Below are positions 1,800 through 12,661 of a stretch of DNA of 25,699 nt, piece after piece. Below the pieces are notes generated by a model. It was not told where the DNA came from. It made no database searches and saw only the letters and a list, made by a program, of their open reading frames with translations. The stretch spans positions 1 through 25,699 of the IMG/VR virus record IMGVR_UViG_3300024520_000449. The stretch is one strand, 5' to 3'. The first letter of the stretch is position 1. Every line of letters begins with the position of its first letter. Origin of the DNA: a virus. The position numbers were made by a program, and so were the translations under genes.

Positions 1800-2270
1800 T
1801 TGCGCGGCCAATACGAGCAGTTGGACGGAGAACAGCGCGCGCTGATCTTGCACTCGCTCGCCGAGTACGAAGGCCCGACCGACATCAGCCGAAAGTTCGA
1901 AGGGCAATACGGGCGCAAAATCTCAGAAGGTCTGATTCGCTACTACCGGGACACCGACTCATGGGCCAGCGAAATAGCCACGATCCGGCAAGAACTCAAT
2001 CGCCGCATCATCGCGGATATTCCGATTGCATCGAAGCGGTGGAGACTGAAGCAGCTCTACCGACACTGGAAAGCCGCGGCCGACGAAGGCCGACACATGA
2101 GCGCCGCGCGCATGCTGCGACAAGCCGCCGAAGAACTCGGACAGATCCGCGTCGGCATCGACCTTGACGTTGGCGAGAGAGAGCACGTCGTCTCCGTCGC
2201 GGGTACAGTTATCCCTAGCGCCATTGCGGGCCTACCAGAGCCCGGTACTGTTCTCGACGGCGAGGGATGA
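1800..2270 (+). CDS. DUF2280 family protein, candidate small terminase subunit
   Basis: The 156-residue product matches the DUF2280 pattern known from Mu-like and related phages. It has an N-terminal helix-turn-helix-like region (ALILHSLAEYEGPTDISRKFEG), then a conserved stretch containing DIPIASKRWRLKQLYRHW and SAARMLRQAAEELGQ. DUF2280 genes usually lie directly before the large terminase, and small-subunit DNA recognition is the accepted inference. The start is TTG at 1800; a TAGGGGG run lies upstream at somewhat long spacing, so the start is less certain than the family. Its last 107 bases overlap the large terminase gene in another frame. Confidence 0.7.
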   Translation: MRGQYEQLDGEQRALILHSLAEYEGPTDISRKFEGQYGRKISEGLIRYYRDTDSWASEIATIRQELNRRIIADIPIASKRWRLKQLYRHWKAAADEGRHMSAARMLRQAAEELGQIRVGIDLDVGEREHVVSVAGTVIPSAIAGLPEPGTVLDGEG

Positions 2271-3639
2271 TTTTACAGTCTCCGTGCCACAGGCCGGTAA
2301 GACATTCACCGCGGCCGAGTGGTTACTCGCTGCGACGTGGATGGCGGGCAATTTACCGTGGGCCTGGTGGTGGGCTGCGCCAACTTACGACCTCACGTAT
2401 GCCGGGTACATGCTGTATTGCGAGATGGCAGACTCGGCGGGGATTCTCGCGGACAGGACTACGCGACCACCGCTGACGGCCAAGCTCATCAACGGGGCGC
2501 GCGTCGAGGGTCGGTCGTGGCACAAGGCCGACAACTTGCGCGGTCATCCCGTAGCCGGCGCAGTCGTCGACGAGTTCGGGATGCTCACGTGGGAGGCTTA
2601 CAAGAATCTCTCGGCTCGTCGGTTGGAGACGATCAATCACGGGCTGGGGTTCTATCGCTACCTCGGCAACGTCGGGGAGATTGGCGGCGCTGGTGAGGAA
2701 CTCTGGAACAGAGCCGAAGCGGGCAGTCGAGGCATGGCGTGCCGACGATGGACGTGGCGAGATCGTGCCCTCGACCTGGGTTGCGCGTGCGATGCCAGAG
2801 GCATCAATCCTGAACTTGGGACCTCGGACCAACACGACGCCAAGTGTTCACGACGGGGGTATGTTGCATTCGTCGAGAACGAAGCCGAGCGACTGAGCCG
2901 ACGCGAGTTCGATCAGGTCTATGAAGCCGAATGGGGCGACGCGAACGATCTCCCGGTGTACGACTTCAACCGCGACACGCACGTCACCAGCCAAGCCGAG
3001 CACTCCGACAAACTCGCGCTCGAGGTCTGCTGCGACTTCAACGTAGACCCGATGGCCTGGGTCATCGGCCACCACCACGGGATGGACGCCTGGGACTTCG
3101 ACGAGATCATCATCCCCGGTGGAGCTCGGACCGAGCAAGCCTGCAGGGAGCTGATCCGCCGATACCCGAGTCAACGTCAGCCGGTCAGGGTCTACGGCGA
3201 CGCATCGGGCAAGCATCGGGACACCCGGTCGAACGTCTCCGACTACGACCAGATCCGCCAGCTGCTCGGCGCGCACTATCACAACCTGGAGATCCTGATC
3301 CCGACGAGCAATCCCCCTGTGGCCGAGCGGGTCAACGCGGTCAACGCGGCCATGGCGCCGAAGGCCGGCGAGCCCAGGTACGGGATACACCCCCGCTGCG
3401 TCCACACGATCAGGTCGTGGGCCAGGACGAGCTACCTGCCCGGAACCCGCGATATCGACAAGCGCCCTGACAGGAAGACAGGCTCGCCCAACCTGCCCCG
3501 GACCCACCCGTCGGACGCCAGCGGCTACCGGATCCACTGGTTATGGCCGACCTCGGCGAAAACCGTAGTGGAGGTCGGCGTCCCGGTTGGTGGTATGCTT
3601 GAGACTGCCAACGACGAGATATTGGGGGCGAGCTTTTGA
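2164..3639 (+). CDS. terL: Terminase large subunit (ATPase and nuclease)
   Basis: This 491-residue protein is the DNA-packaging motor. A variant Walker A motif, VPQAGKT, lies at residues 41-47. Walker B is AVVDEFG at 133-139, giving catalytic D136/E137. A coupling-type YLGN follows at 166-169. The C-terminal RNase H-like nuclease shows its expected acidic positions: D291 in CCDFNVDP, D346 in VYGDASGK and D451 in THPSDASGY. Residues 207-231 include a C-x-C...C segment. The start is TTG at 2164 (TTG at 2170 is possible). No ATG or GTG exists before Walker A, and the LRAYQ region needed in this family forces the start into the DUF2280 gene. It ends in a TTGA overlap with the portal gene. Confidence 0.93.
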   Translation: MTLARESTSSPSRVQLSLAPLRAYQSPVLFSTARDDFTVSVPQAGKTFTAAEWLLAATWMAGNLPWAWWWAAPTYDLTYAGYMLYCEMADSAGILADRTTRPPLTAKLINGARVEGRSWHKADNLRGHPVAGAVVDEFGMLTWEAYKNLSARRLETINHGLGFYRYLGNVGEIGGAGEELWNRAEAGSRGMACRRWTWRDRALDLGCACDARGINPELGTSDQHDAKCSRRGYVAFVENEAERLSRREFDQVYEAEWGDANDLPVYDFNRDTHVTSQAEHSDKLALEVCCDFNVDPMAWVIGHHHGMDAWDFDEIIIPGGARTEQACRELIRRYPSQRQPVRVYGDASGKHRDTRSNVSDYDQIRQLLGAHYHNLEILIPTSNPPVAERVNAVNAAMAPKAGEPRYGIHPRCVHTIRSWARTSYLPGTRDIDKRPDRKTGSPNLPRTHPSDASGYRIHWLWPTSAKTVVEVGVPVGGMLETANDEILGASF

Positions 3640-5258
3640 GCCTACTCTCCCGGATCCGAGAAGCCTTGCCGGTGTCACGGCGGGACATGCTCGCTCTACA
3701 GGCCGAGAACGAATCGCTCGAACGGCGGGTACGAGCGTCGAAGGCCGTCGCCTCCGGTGTCGAGATCAACTTCGGCCGCTTCGACTACGAGGACAATGAA
3801 TTCCTGAACGGCGCGGCGAAGTGGACTACGCTCGACCGGATGGAGGCCGACCCCGCGGTCAAGGGCGCGCTGATGGCTCGGGCCCTGCCGCTGCAGAACG
3901 CCGAATGGGACATCCAGGCCGCGTCGGACGATCCACGCGACCAGGAGATTGCCGACTTCGTGTCCGCCAACCTGCTCCGCAAACAGACCGAGCAGTTTGG
4001 GCGACAGTTCTGGACCGAGACCCCATGGGAGTCGCAGCGGCTACCCGAGATCCTACAGTCCGACCGCGACGGGTTCTCGCTGTTCCACCTGACCACCAGG
4101 CCTGTGGGCACGAAGCGGGTATTCGATCGGATCCAGTGGATCGAGCCGCACACGATCGACGCCATGGAACCCTGGGTGATCGACGACGAGGACCGGATCG
4201 TCCAGATCAATCGGACGTTCACGGTGCCGAGCGGGTTGGTGGAGACAGAGGCGCCTCTGCTGGCTGGTGAAATCGCGCTGTACGTCCACGGCATGAAGGG
4301 CGCCCGTTACGAGGGCAGGCCGTTCGTGCGGTCGATGTACGGGGCATGGTTCAGGAAAGAGGCCGTCCAGCGGTGGCGGGCTATCTGGGCGCAAAAGACC
4401 GGCAGCCCAGCCCCGCTCGGCATCTACCCGAAGTCCTGGGACGCTGCGGCACGTGAGGACTTCTCGCGCTACCTCAAAGCGATCAGGGGCACGGCGCCTG
4501 CGGAGACCTACGGGATGTTCCCGGTGATGCCCGGCGAGGATCCGCCGACGATCACCTGGGCCGGCGCCGAGCACGACGTCGAGCGCGGCATGAACGACCT
4601 GGTCGATTCCGAGAACGCTGAGATATCGCGGGCGGGCTCCACGAAGTCCCGGCTGCTGGGGGAGACTCAATCGGGCAGCCGGTCGCTCGGCGACTCGCAG
4701 CTGGGCATGGAGATGCTCGAAATCCAGTCGCTCGCCAAGGCAATATGCTCGATGGAGTCGCACGGGGTAGCCAACATCCCCGGACTGATCCAGCGTCTCG
4801 TCGACATGAACTACCCGAACGTCGAAGCCTATCCGGTGCTGACCTGCAGCAAGATCGACCCCGACGAGAACCTCAAGCATCTCGACGGACTGGTCAAGGC
4901 TGTGCAGGCCGGGATCGTGCCGAACCATCCCGACCTACGGAAGTCGGTAACCGGGATGTTCGGGATCGTGCTACCCGACGACGCTTTCGAAGAAATGGAC
5001 GTGGCTCCGGAGGTTCCCACCGACCCGGCCGACTCGCCCCCCCCCAACCCTGGGGCTGCGTCCGACCCTGACGACGACGACGAAGTCCAGGCGGCGGCAC
5101 TGACTACGAAGCAGGAGATCGCCGAGCGGCTCGGCCCGCTGCTTGAGCCGGTCAGGGAGGGAAGCCCCCGTACAGGGGGCAGGTTTCCCGACCAAGCTGG
5201 AGGCCAAGGTACTCAACCTCGCCGAGATCCAGGAGACGTTCCGCGTCGGCGAGCGTGA
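3636..5258 (+). CDS. Portal protein, DUF935 (Mu gp29-like) family
   Basis: The 540-residue frame matches Mu gp29-type portals, the dodecameric head-vertex ring that DNA passes through. Family features include DRMEADPAVKGALMARALPL near residue 70, the RDGFSLFHLTTRPV and QWIEPHTIDAM region, YEGRPFVRSMYGAWFRKEA, and the GETQSGSRSLGDSQLGMEML stretch. TTG at 3636 overlaps the terminase stop, with GGGGGCG just upstream. The last ~25 residues (after GRF) are Arg/Gly/Pro-rich and use codons with A/T in third position, unlike the rest. In the same span the +1 frame uses typical codons. Coding therefore appears to leave this frame at about 5150-5190, near the hairpin at 5159-5189. Confidence 0.9.
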   Translation: MSLLSRIREALPVSRRDMLALQAENESLERRVRASKAVASGVEINFGRFDYEDNEFLNGAAKWTTLDRMEADPAVKGALMARALPLQNAEWDIQAASDDPRDQEIADFVSANLLRKQTEQFGRQFWTETPWESQRLPEILQSDRDGFSLFHLTTRPVGTKRVFDRIQWIEPHTIDAMEPWVIDDEDRIVQINRTFTVPSGLVETEAPLLAGEIALYVHGMKGARYEGRPFVRSMYGAWFRKEAVQRWRAIWAQKTGSPAPLGIYPKSWDAAAREDFSRYLKAIRGTAPAETYGMFPVMPGEDPPTITWAGAEHDVERGMNDLVDSENAEISRAGSTKSRLLGETQSGSRSLGDSQLGMEMLEIQSLAKAICSMESHGVANIPGLIQRLVDMNYPNVEAYPVLTCSKIDPDENLKHLDGLVKAVQAGIVPNHPDLRKSVTGMFGIVLPDDAFEEMDVAPEVPTDPADSPPPNPGAASDPDDDDEVQAAALTTKQEIAERLGPLLEPVREGSPRTGGRFPDQAGGQGTQPRRDPGDVPRRRA

Positions 5259-5478
5259 CATGCTCCAGGCTTTTCGGAAGCTTCAGATTCTCATGTCGGC
5301 CGACCTGATGGGCCGGTTGAAGGCGGGCCAGGTCACGGCGCGCAACCTCGAAGGACTGAAACGGTCCCGATTCAAGCGCGAGGGTCAGGCGGTCGAGAGG
5401 CTCGACCCGATGCTGCGGCGGATCGGTCGTACTGGCGGGAAGCAGGTCGTCGAGGAGATCGAGCGTGGCTCTACGTAG
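5143..5478 (+). CDS. MuF-type head morphogenesis protein, N-terminal piece (or portal extension)
   Basis: This frame lies +1 to the portal and carries helical, charged sequence (NLAEIQETFRVGERDMLQAF, then RLKAGQVTARNLEGLKRSRF) that fits the N-terminal part of Mu gpF/SPP1 gp7-like minor head proteins. The start is unclear. TTG at 5143 has no ribosome binding site. An ATG at 5260 directly follows the portal stop as TGACATG, a junction also used at 9588 and 21651. However, codon usage is typical of this genome in this frame already from about 5185, upstream of that ATG. A fused portal-MuF product made by frameshifting, or an indel, are alternatives. It ends in a 14-base overlap with the next gene. 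Confidence 0.6.
   Translation: MSRSGREAPVQGAGFPTKLEAKVLNLAEIQETFRVGERDMLQAFRKLQILMSADLMGRLKAGQVTARNLEGLKRSRFKREGQAVERLDPMLRRIGRTGGKQVVEEIERGST
5159..5189 (+). other. RNA hairpin at the portal/MuF coding-frame switch
   Basis: GCCCCC (5164-5169) and GGGGGC (5175-5180) form a perfect 6-bp stem with the five-base loop GTACA. An outer stem GGGAA (5159-5163) with TTCCC (5185-5189) extends it across a four-base bulge. It sits where the apparent coding frame moves from the portal frame to the next frame. It could stimulate a recoding event, act as a translational coupling element, or mark a spot prone to sequencing error because it contains C5 and G5 runs. Confidence 0.5.
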
Positions 5479-5929
5479 GCACGTCGAAGCCTTCCGCCAG
5501 GAGACTCGGGTGCTGGCGTCGCTGTCGGTCGGCCAGTTGTGGGATCGACTCCTGAACGAGTTTCTTCAGCGCAAGGCCGAGCTCGACCGCCAGGGATTGC
5601 CCACGGCCGAGGTCGAGCGGGAGATGGCGGCGTTCCTCGACGGCCTGTCCGATCGACCGATTGAAGACTTGGCGCGGACCACGAGCGGAGTTGCGTACAA
5701 CGAAGGCCGGGAGGCCGAGCTTCTGACCGCAAACGAGCAGGGGAAAGCGTCGTTCGTGGTCCGCTCCGAGATACTCGACCGGAACACTTGCGAGCCTTGT
5801 TCCCGCCTCGACGGGTCTGTATTCGAGATCGGTAGCGCGGACTTCCACAAGTTCCAGCCCCCCGCCGAGTGCCTGGGCCGTGACCGCTGCCGTGGGTTCT
5901 ACGTGCCGATCGCCAACGATCTGGTGTAG
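5465..5929 (+). CDS. MuF-like minor head protein, C-terminal domain
   Basis: The 154-residue product ends in the diagnostic Mu gpF/SPP1 gp7-like signature. ARTTSGVAYNEGREAEL (70-86) is followed by a four-cysteine, probably zinc-binding arrangement, C109-x2-C112-SRLDG, then PPAEC136 and C142-RGF. These proteins enter the procapsid and help head assembly and DNA ejection. GTG at 5465 has a perfect GAGGAG seven bases upstream, supporting a separate translation start. Normal family members contain both this domain and an N-terminal helical part in one chain, whereas here the N-terminal part is in the preceding frame. The protein is either a naturally split subunit or one third of a disrupted portal-MuF gene. 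Confidence 0.85.
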   Translation: MALRRHVEAFRQETRVLASLSVGQLWDRLLNEFLQRKAELDRQGLPTAEVEREMAAFLDGLSDRPIEDLARTTSGVAYNEGREAELLTANEQGKASFVVRSEILDRNTCEPCSRLDGSVFEIGSADFHKFQPPAECLGRDRCRGFYVPIANDLV

Positions 5930-5974: not shown

Positions 5975-7165
5975 TTGCCCAGTTTTACGGCTTCTGACCC
6001 GATCAAGGCGACCATCCTGGAGCGCCGGGAAGACGGCTCGCTACTCGTCGAGGTCCCGATTCTGGTCGTCACGCCCCGGCTCGATCTGTCGAAAACAGAC
6101 GGCGGGGGCAAGGGCTCGATCTCCATCGGCGAGGCCGAGCTCGACCAGATGGTCGAGAACTTCTCCATCTGGCCGAAGCCTGTCGCCATGGGCTTCGACG
6201 GCCTCGACGGCCACCAGGACCAGCGCGGCGGCCCTCAACTCGCTTTCGTCAAAGGTCTGCGGCGTAGGGGGGCCAACCTGTTCGCCAGAGTGGAGCTGGA
6301 CTCTCTCGCCGCTGACCTATTCACTCGGTTCAGGGCCACGTCGATCGAGGCTTTGCGGAACCCCAAGACGCCGACAGGTAGCTTCACCGGGTGGGTCGCC
6401 ACGGGTGGGATCTTCACGAACTCGCCGGCCGCGGATACGACGTTCGAGATCGCGGCTGGCAGTGAAGCAATCCTCGCGGACCTGCGCCTCGCCGCCTCAT
6501 GTAAATTCAACATACCGGCCGATGGCCGTGAGGAGTCCGAAATGCCGAACACCGAAACGGCCAAGACCACGGCCGAGCTGCAGTCTGCCGTCTCGCTGGC
6601 GGAGGACGCCAAGAAGCACGCCGAGGGTTCGATGCGCGCCACGGAGGAAAAGCTCCACGCCACGCAGACGAAACTCAGCGCCTCGATGGCCCGGAACGTC
6701 GAGCTTGACGCCGACCTGGCTGAAGCGCAGTCGAAGGCCGGGGACCTGAAGACCTCGAAGCTGTCGCTGGAGGCCAAGGTCGAGAACCTGGAGCGTGAGA
6801 CGTCCAAGCTCGCCGCGTCGCTGAAGGCTACTTCCGATGAGGCACAGTCGAAGCTCATCCGCGAGACAGCAGCGGCAGCTGTCGAGAGTGGAATGTCCGC
6901 AGCCTACTTCGAGGGCGTGGACGACGACCCGTTGGCATGGTTCACAGCCAAGGGTTTTACCAACGTCAAAGCACTGGAGGACCTCGTGGAACTCCAGCCG
7001 AAGGTCGAGAAGGTATCCGCCACGTCCGCCGGCAGAAAGCCGACCGACGCGCCCGACACCCTCCCGAAAGAAGCACGAGACAAGCTGGAGCGGCTCGGAC
7101 TCGGTGACTCGAAGTACGACAACGTCGAGAACGAGGGCGACCTGATCCCGCTTCGCAGCAAGTAG
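5975..7165 (+). CDS. Mu I-like capsid maturation protease fused to scaffold
   Basis: This 396-residue protein has an N-terminal protease-like region and a C-terminal scaffold region. The protease half shows the Mu gpI pattern: PVAMGFDGLDGHQD with H80, LFARVELDS, and SFTGWVATGGIFTNSPA near residues 136-152, matching the (L/F)TN-x-PA motif of Mu-like proteases. Residues about 190-310 form a long Ala/Glu/Lys-rich coiled coil typical of scaffolds, followed by an acidic C-terminus. The TTG start at 5975 has AAGGG six bases upstream. An internal in-frame ATG with a strong ribosome binding site lies at the domain junction (see the nested entry). The protein should form the procapsid core, mature the head and then degrade itself. 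Confidence 0.82.
   Translation: MPSFTASDPIKATILERREDGSLLVEVPILVVTPRLDLSKTDGGGKGSISIGEAELDQMVENFSIWPKPVAMGFDGLDGHQDQRGGPQLAFVKGLRRRGANLFARVELDSLAADLFTRFRATSIEALRNPKTPTGSFTGWVATGGIFTNSPAADTTFEIAAGSEAILADLRLAASCKFNIPADGREESEMPNTETAKTTAELQSAVSLAEDAKKHAEGSMRATEEKLHATQTKLSASMARNVELDADLAEAQSKAGDLKTSKLSLEAKVENLERETSKLAASLKATSDEAQSKLIRETAAAAVESGMSAAYFEGVDDDPLAWFTAKGFTNVKALEDLVELQPKVEKVSATSAGRKPTDAPDTLPKEARDKLERLGLGDSKYDNVENEGDLIPLRSK
6542..7165 (+). CDS. Nested scaffold protein (internal in-frame start)
   Basis: ATG at 6542, codon 190 of the protease-scaffold gene, is preceded by GAGGAG at 6530-6535 with an ideal six-base spacer. Translation from it would give a 207-residue protein containing only the coiled-coil scaffold (EDAKKHAEGSMRATEEKL onward) and the acidic tail. 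This mirrors Mu gene Z nested in gene I and lambda Nu3 nested in C. The excess free scaffold builds the procapsid, while the rarer fusion supplies the protease. The ribosome binding site and domain boundary are seen directly; the function follows from the Mu and lambda precedents. Confidence 0.75.
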   Translation: MPNTETAKTTAELQSAVSLAEDAKKHAEGSMRATEEKLHATQTKLSASMARNVELDADLAEAQSKAGDLKTSKLSLEAKVENLERETSKLAASLKATSDEAQSKLIRETAAAAVESGMSAAYFEGVDDDPLAWFTAKGFTNVKALEDLVELQPKVEKVSATSAGRKPTDAPDTLPKEARDKLERLGLGDSKYDNVENEGDLIPLRSK

Positions 7166-8322: not shown

Positions 8323-9264
8323 ATGCCACTGACGCATGGAACCGAACTCCTCCGCCGAACCGCACACCGATCGTTCTGGCAGTCGTTCGAGACGACTCCC
8401 GACCAGACGACCTCGATCACTTTCCGGGCAAGCTCCGATTCCGACCAGGAGACGTACCCGTTCCTGTCGGCCGCTCCCAGCCCGATCGAGATGGCAGGCT
8501 CGCGCACACACAAGGCGGTGCCCCAGATCAGCTACGCGATCAAGAATAAGAAGTGGGAGTCGACCGTCAACATCTCATACGAGATGCTCCGCTTCAACAA
8601 GATCGAACAGGTCGCAGCCCTGTCGGCCGAACTCGGGCAGAAGGCCAGGATCTACCCGGCCAACATCATCTCGGGTACGCTGATGAACAGCGGATCCTCG
8701 ACCGCGGGTCCGGATACGCAGAACTTTTACGACACCGACCACACCGACCCCGGCGCAGACTTCCAGACCAGCGGCGACAACGACAGGACGACCGCGATCG
8801 TCGCCGCGACTGCCCCGACCGATATCGAGTTCGCAGCGGCAGTCCGAGACGGAATCGACCAACTCATCGGGTTCAAGGACGGCCAGGGTGACCCGGTGTG
8901 GGTCGGCCCGAACACGATCTGGGAAGTCCACGTCCCGGCGGCCTACTACTCGGTAGCTCGCAGGGTCGAGACTGCCGACTCCCTGACCGGCCCGGTGGGC
9001 AACGACCTGCAAGGCCGTTTCACCACCATTTTCAACCCCTACATCGACGCGGCAGGAACGACGGCCGCGTTCTACATGCACAATCCTTCCGGTGTCCGCA
9101 AACCATTCGTGTTCCAGACGGCGACGCCGACCGAGTTCGACAACGGCATCGGCACCGACTTCAACAAGGAAACGAAGGACTCCTGGATCGGGACCTTCAT
9201 GTTCGGCAACGGTGGATATGGGGATTGGCGATACAGCCTGCTCCACACGTTCACCACGATCTAG
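8323..9264 (+). CDS. Major capsid protein, Mu gpT-like
   Basis: The 313-residue protein follows the Mu gpT major head subunit pattern. SFWQSFETTP lies near the N-terminus, with YPFLSAAPSPIEMAGSR around residues 46-62. The characteristic ISYAIKNKKWESTVNISYEM follows at 69-89. Later parts are WVGPNTIWEVHVPA and the C-terminal VFQTATPTEFDNG region. It should form the icosahedral shell with an HK97-like fold. ATG 8323 follows a GGGGGGG run at about eight-base spacing, a strong site suited to high expression. The gene is followed by a robust terminator-like hairpin. Confidence 0.88.
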   Translation: MPLTHGTELLRRTAHRSFWQSFETTPDQTTSITFRASSDSDQETYPFLSAAPSPIEMAGSRTHKAVPQISYAIKNKKWESTVNISYEMLRFNKIEQVAALSAELGQKARIYPANIISGTLMNSGSSTAGPDTQNFYDTDHTDPGADFQTSGDNDRTTAIVAATAPTDIEFAAAVRDGIDQLIGFKDGQGDPVWVGPNTIWEVHVPAAYYSVARRVETADSLTGPVGNDLQGRFTTIFNPYIDAAGTTAAFYMHNPSGVRKPFVFQTATPTEFDNGIGTDFNKETKDSWIGTFMFGNGGYGDWRYSLLHTFTTI

Positions 9265-12331: not shown

Positions 12332-12661
12332 GTGCAGCTTCAGACCATCGCAGAACTCAGCCGACCGATCTGGATCGAGGTCCCGGAGGACGAGGACGGG
12401 ACGCTACGGCTCCAGATCGTACCGGCCGGCATCGACTCGTTCAACACGTTCCTTTACGGTGAGAACGAGCGTCGGCTGATCTGTCAAGAATTCTTCGTGG
12501 ACTTCGATGGGTACTCGGACGGCGACCGGCCGGTCAAGAATACCCTCGAAGCTCGGATGCAGCTTCTACGCTGGCCGCCGGTACGCAAGGCGCTGAACCA
12601 ACAGGTCAACGTCATAGCGTCGAGGCAAAACCAGGGGGAAGCCGTCGCCGTCTCCGCCTAG
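12332..12661 (+). CDS. Tail assembly chaperone, upstream frame (lambda G-like position)
   Basis: A 109-residue protein starting at GTG 12332 after a TAGGGGG site; the longer frame upstream is a shadow of the tube gene. It opens with LQTIAELSRPIWIEVPEDED and is followed by an alpha/beta region ending in helices (LLRWPPVRKALNQQVN). It lies between tail tube and tape measure, as G does in lambda. Near its 3' end, CAG GGG GAA offers a -1 slip into a second open frame. Slippage would yield a G-T-like fusion of about 260 residues. The chaperone role, coating the tape measure during tail assembly, is inferred from gene order. Confidence 0.7.
   Translation: MQLQTIAELSRPIWIEVPEDEDGTLRLQIVPAGIDSFNTFLYGENERRLICQEFFVDFDGYSDGDRPVKNTLEARMQLLRWPPVRKALNQQVNVIASRQNQGEAVAVSA
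12632..12640 (+). other. Candidate -1 programmed frameshift site in the tail chaperone
   Basis: The sequence CAGGGGGAA, read as CAG GGG GAA in the upstream frame, has five consecutive G residues (12634-12638). A glycyl-tRNA on GGG can slip back one base onto an identical GGG. The -1 frame is open through this point and continues to 13113. It is a weaker slippery motif than lambda GGGAAAG. The next gene's own GTG start has no clear ribosome binding site, which favours expression by slippage. Confidence 0.5.

Follow-up and report, generated by a model that had tools for sequence, protein, structure and literature searches.

A probable programmed +1 frameshift between portal and MuF coding in a metagenomic phage

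Three reading frames across the portal-MuF region

The window (the whole stretch of DNA analyzed here) is a 25.7-kb virus record of 25,699 nucleotides (nt), IMGVR_UViG_3300024520_000449, and is a single metagenomic contig. We examined the region in which its portal gene is followed by coding for MuF, a head morphogenesis protein. The portal gene (3636–5258, + strand) starts at a TTG that overlaps the terminase stop, and its zero-frame product has 540 amino acids (aa). This product is a Portal_Mu protein (PF06074, E = 2.5e-29; 103.1 bits against a gathering score of 23.9) and also matches the PHROG 113 portal (E = 3e-28). It is followed in the +1 frame by a middle open reading frame (ORF; 5187–5478, + strand, first full codon at 5188) encoding a block of ~96 aa that runs from PTKLEA to ERGST and is identified below as the N-terminal half of MuF (MuF-N). 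The C-terminal half of the MuF/head morphogenesis domain (MuF-C) is encoded at 5465–5929 (+ strand), overlapping the middle ORF by 14 nt. MuF-C gave a weak match to Phage_Mu_F (PF04233, E = 9.5e-5; 23.6 bits against a gathering score of 29.6) and a better one to PHROG 595, a head maturation protease (E = 1.3e-7). The middle ORF alone had no match in Pfam and PHROG profile searches, nor in a tblastn search of the phage collection.

An earlier reading of the sequence alone (the sequence-only reading) had proposed that coding passes from frame 0 to +1 and then to +2, with the portal frame turning A/T-ending past the first switch, and had called for a codon-based frame plot. When codon usage was plotted in 63-nt windows, frame 0 scored best up to windows starting at ~5130, frame +1 from ~5160 to 5460, and frame +2 from ~5475. 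The transitions, at 5145–5207 and near 5465, bear out the proposed succession, and the A/T-ending codons of the portal frame beyond the first of them were seen again. The frame changes in the window are real.

Conservation of the frame change in a second phage

A second contig, from another metagenome (IMG/VR 3300024520_000354, hereafter L011), has the same gene order and the same three relative frames. Its portal is 46% identical to that of the window over 517 aa, its middle block 51% (E = 3e-24), and its MuF-C 59%; the nucleotide alignment of the two phages is free of gaps from 5100 to 5465. At the switch lies a 19-nt block, GGGGGCAGGTTTCCCGACC (5175–5193, + strand), which is identical in L011 and is the proposed +1 shift site. 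The run alone is modestly unusual (P ~0.03 under a uniform 58% identity model) and is only the second longest, a 21-nt identical run lying within the middle block. Read in frame 0, it makes six consecutive identical codons, against a maximum of four elsewhere in the aligned portal, and it contains TTT, a minority Phe codon in the window (32 of 206). The motif, written as a pattern with degeneracy at three positions (two N, one M), was searched against 2.9 million viral contigs and returned 30 matches. Judged by tblastn, portal or MuF coding lay near just one of them, on L011's own contig; the 29 other loci, without such homology, were taken as chance. We give more weight to the shared reading-frame architecture than to the 19-nt identity.

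The pattern of substitution between the two phages indicates that the +1 reading is under purifying selection. Over 5229–5258, upstream of an ATG at 5260, the two phages differ at six nucleotides, each of them a third position of the +1 frame; across the whole middle ORF, 51 of the 109 differences lie at such positions (p = 0.002). The overlap zone alone provides a weaker test (10 of 19; p = 0.06). The peptide GFPT.LEA....LA..QETFRVGERD, also encoded upstream of ATG 5260, is kept in the +1 frame of both phages. The zero-frame portal stop is at a different position in L011 than in the window, and the last ~24 portal codons after the shift site look non-conserved.

These observations bear on an artefactual origin of the frame change. 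C5 and G5 runs within a hairpin, as at the switch, are typical sites of error, and the window comes from one metagenomic contig, so that an indel introduced in sequencing or assembly has to be weighed, as does a recent frameshift mutation in a gene that is decaying. Sequencing error is strongly argued against because L011 has the same gene order, the same +1 relation, and the identical 19-nt block. An indel in the G/C runs, which the sequence-only reading had listed among its possibilities, is made very unlikely by the same frame change in an independent contig from another metagenome, with a portal only 46% identical and with purifying selection on the +1 reading; we attach almost no probability to an error or a decaying gene. 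The sole homopolymer of at least eight in the window, a C9 run at 5037–5045 in the portal proline linker, was considered as a slip site and rejected, as each shifted frame runs into a stop upstream of the middle block (at 5101–5103 in frame +1). Slippage at this run is possible and would only truncate the portal; the L011 contig has no homopolymer as long.

At the second switch, the GTG at 5465 is preceded by a perfect Shine-Dalgarno sequence, GAGGAG (5452–5457, + strand), with a spacer of 7 nt. It had looked like a real start to the sequence-only reading, and L011 agrees, with GGAG, a 7-nt spacer, and an ATG at 6339. The MuF-C starts overlap the middle stop by 11–14 nt in both phages. A second frameshift at 5465 is ruled out by a true start with a Shine-Dalgarno sequence in both, and on this sequence evidence the second switch is the normal start of an overlapping gene.

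MuF-N in related phages and the question of separate initiation

The middle block is colinear with the N-terminal MuF half of portal-MuF fusions encoded by single ORFs, which in the compared set occur in L003, L018, L019, L020, and L016, and in L004 and L005 with another portal family. PTKLEA in the window aligns with LTKIEA (L003), LTLTEA (L018), and LTVLEA (L019), and a global profile comparison with hhalign matched the middle block to the start of fused MuF (P = 8e-6). These alignments identify the block as MuF-N. An AlphaFold model of the middle block and MuF-C as one chain gave a mostly confident helical fold (mean predicted local distance difference test score 75; predicted template modeling score 0.73). 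Its best matches among viral models were capsid maturation proteases, minor capsid/head morphogenesis proteins, and portal proteins, over ~250 columns with template modeling scores up to 0.72. The alignment behind the model was built from fused MuF proteins, which makes the model supporting rather than independent evidence. A fold search of the PDB returned generic helical bundles only.

Single-gene portal-MuF fusions have been described in Microbacterium phages EA3, EA5, EA8, and EB (PMC7302621). As in those proteins, portal precedes MuF, and their MuF portion begins with sequence that aligns to the middle ORF. The window differs in that the join is out of frame and needs a shift, and in that only MuF-N is joined, MuF-C being separate. 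The earlier suggestion of an ancestral fusion, now split, would fit at the protein level, since in-frame fusions exist and the middle ORF corresponds to their MuF-N half. The fusions in L004 (1985–4291) and L005 (2034–3890) involve portals of the PF04860 Phage_portal family. The portal-MuF join therefore seems to have arisen more than once.

In two further phages, L002 and L013, the equivalent block follows immediately on an A9 run and is read in the −1 frame (zero-frame codons GAA AAA AAA A; slippery heptamer A AAA AAA). Their portals are 36% identical to each other and 24–27% identical to that of the window, and A9 is the sole homopolymer of at least eight in either contig (64–65% GC). MuF-C is a separate gene in all four phages. 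L002 and L013 may shift in RNA, because nine-base A/T runs are efficient slippage sites of bacterial RNA polymerase in vivo (PMC5009743). Extended to the whole group, this would have the frame changed by polymerase slippage at G5/C5 in the window and L011 and at A9 in the other two, with the same protein outcome. The runs at the switch in the window and L011 reach at most 5 nt, too short for ordinary slippage, and the C side in L011 is only CUCCC. We consider polymerase slippage likely for L002 and L013 and unlikely for the window, and hold slippage as a common account to be highly doubtful.

The middle ORF could instead encode a small separate protein, translated from an internal start (TTG 5143, ATG 5260, or a non-standard codon such as CTG 5197) and coupled to the portal. 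The portal stop, TGA 5256–5258, adjoins ATG 5260 as in coupled genes, and the homologous codon in L011 is GTG 6128; initiation there would lose the peptide from GFPT to QETFRVGERD, a stretch that scores as coding in the +1 frame and is kept in both phages. TTG 5143 lacks both a Shine-Dalgarno sequence and a counterpart in L011, and it sits where frame 0 and not +1 scores as coding. The first in-frame start in L011, GTG 6062, is ~10 nt past an AGG and falls inside the conserved block; the window has AAG at the corresponding position. L002 has an ATG (3531) just past its A9 run; in the middle ORF of L013, any ATG, GTG, or TTG is confined to the last 19 codons. The +1-frame starts of the window and L011 lie at different positions, and no start codon ahead of the conserved region is common to the two. 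Separate initiation explains the conserved block poorly because +1 coding precedes the plausible starts and the starts are unshared. We regard an overlapping gene as unlikely, and a separate gene beginning at ATG 5260, which the sequence-only reading had named among the findings that would remove recoding, is disfavored by the conserved +1 coding upstream of that codon.

Other features of the head operon and of the compared phages were recorded. The operon includes the terminase large subunit (2164–3639) and a Mu gpT-like major head protein (8323–9264); a coiled-coil-like protein (5975–7165) occupies the place expected for a protease or scaffold. Between the middle ORF stop and the MuF-C start of L002 (~3887–3918), and at the same place in L013, lies a strong, conserved terminator-like hairpin (GGGCCTGACG...CGT[C/T]AGGCCC, then T6), where attenuation of MuF-C could occur. 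In Arthrobacter phage ArV1 (L006, 2866–5190) and Lymara (L007, 2876–5212), the MuF gene has a long C-terminal extension and the next gene is annotated as an immunity protein, a pair that resembles MuF polymorphic toxin pairs. A portal profile search of 396 genomes of the phylum to which a Streptosporangium strain belongs returned only the centre itself and no prophage relatives of the window type, and a plasmid search found none. Elsewhere in the window, an apparent frame change at 11.9–12.1 kb proved to be a shadow alignment where two genes meet in the usual way. A candidate canonical −1 frameshift site, GGGGGAA, lies at 12634, and the same signal is present in the L011 contig (L058, ~17035).

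A candidate +1 shift site and its implications

The two-part hairpin with C5 and G5 runs that the sequence-only reading had placed at the first switch (5159–5189) was found to be slightly larger (5155–5189, + strand), and L011 has the same fold at 6023–6057. The outer stem pairs GGGAGG (5155–5160) with UUUCCC (5184–5189), and the inner stem GCCCCC (5164–5169) with GGGGGC (5175–5180). With a minimum free energy of −23 kcal/mol (z = −3.6), it ranks first for stability among the 36-nt segments of the portal-MuF region of each phage (of 753 in the window and of 756 in L011), and in each phage the inner stem is more stable than ~99% of its synonymous versions. A search of Rfam gave no match.

The inner stem ends at 5180, one codon (AGG) ahead of UUU, in the zero-frame series AGG TTT CCC (5181–5189). 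Re-pairing of Phe tRNA from UUU to UUC would be perfect, the next codons after a +1 slip would be CCG ACC, and TTTC and GGGG both fall within the 19-nt block. The slip codon is probably UUU_C, just 3′ of the hairpin; GGG_G (5175–5178), CCC_G, or a −2 shift are alternatives that the sequence cannot tell apart. Shifts of +1 on proline codons are known from structural genes of Listeria phage PSA (PMC5009743). The arrangement recalls prfB, with AGGGGG closely preceding the P-site codon and a U-rich slip (CUUU in prfB, UUUC in the window). It departs from the prfB-type site (AGGGGG, 3 nt, CTT TGA) in that the run is CGGGGG in L011, the G run sits 4 nt from UUU in the window, and TTT CCC replaces the slip codon and stop. 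The G run may act via the hairpin rather than ribosomal RNA. In published in-vitro work with 70S ribosomes, a hairpin that refolded beside the E site stimulated +1 shifting and thereby mimicked prfB's internal Shine-Dalgarno duplex (PMC6321510).

Three features that mark a +1 frameshift were found here: overlapping ORFs kept in a divergent relative, unshared starts, and a conserved +1 re-pairing site. The candidate stimulator is the stable 5′ hairpin present in both phages, with neither a downstream structure nor an A-site stop. We therefore consider it probable that a programmed +1 frameshift in the portal gene makes a minority portal-MuF-N fusion, and that MuF-C is made from its own start. 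Recoding at the first switch, as first suspected, is well supported by the frames and shift block shared with L011 and the lack of a shared start. The full portal-MuF fusion envisaged at that time is not, as the shifted frame ends at 5478, once MuF-N has been read, and MuF-C has its own gene and ribosome-binding site.

Several observations weigh against this reading. The full-length hairpin is unexceptional in the window (270 of 2000 synonymous versions are as stable), and its outer stem, being identical in both phages, gives zero covariation. No structure was found downstream of the shift site (z = −0.15 and −0.58), the A site holds neither a stop nor a clearly hungry codon (CCC is 76 of 268 Pro codons), and the +1 form is seen in only two contigs, the window and L011. 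The prfB +1 motif, with its 3-nt spacer, performs poorly in an actinomycete, shifting at ~6% in M. smegmatis (PMC12421855). If the host of the window phage is an actinomycete, ~6% shifting could still suffice for a minority subunit.

Under the programmed +1 shift, most ribosomes would stay in frame 0 and yield the 540-aa portal. A minority would shift with UUU (5184–5186) in the P site, the tRNA re-pairing on UUC, stimulated by an element immediately upstream of AGG in the E site, either the stable hairpin or the Shine-Dalgarno-like GGGGG that its 3′ arm contains. Translation by these ribosomes would continue to 5478, giving a portal extended by MuF-N. MuF-C would be made separately from GTG 5465, translationally coupled via the 14-nt overlap. 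By analogy with gp7 of phage SPP1, the minority subunits may serve as a few docking sites on the portal ring through which MuF-C is brought into the head. The MuF protein that has been studied is SPP1 gp7; it attaches to the portal, and each capsid contains one or two copies (PMC5576092; PMC6316719). It too is encoded beside the portal; it comes from a single free-standing gene, whereas here MuF is split and half of it is proposed to be covalent on the portal. A ring with few MuF-N subunits could recruit MuF-C in numbers similar to those of gp7.

Phage protein extensions made by frameshifting are a known kind. The T7/T3 coat protein, Lactobacillus phage A2, and Listeria phages PSA, A118, and A500 likewise add a C-terminal extension to a minority of a virion protein by a programmed shift, and both +1 and −1 shifts occur among related phages with extended structural proteins (PMC5009743). 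In those systems the extended proteins are coat or tail-tube proteins, often with added Ig-like domains; here a portal would gain half of MuF. The −1 frameshift of the lambda G/GT tail chaperones is also a conserved programmed frameshift in a late structural operon, and differs in gene, direction, and signal. No frameshift in a portal gene was found in the partial, openly searchable literature that we covered.

We found no explanation in that literature for why a 12-fold portal ring holds only one or two copies of MuF. If our reading is true, joining half of MuF to a minority of the portal subunits by frameshifting would offer a simple means of setting MuF number. Gene callers would call such a portal complete and could miss the extension. 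We suggest, tentatively and at somewhat less than even confidence, that the portal-MuF junction is a recurrent recoding point (in frame, +1 at hairpin-UUUC, and −1 at A9) at which efficiency sets the number of MuF-docking subunits, and that the two halves of a split MuF come together in trans within the head. The family would then offer a natural comparison, with one protein join made in three ways.
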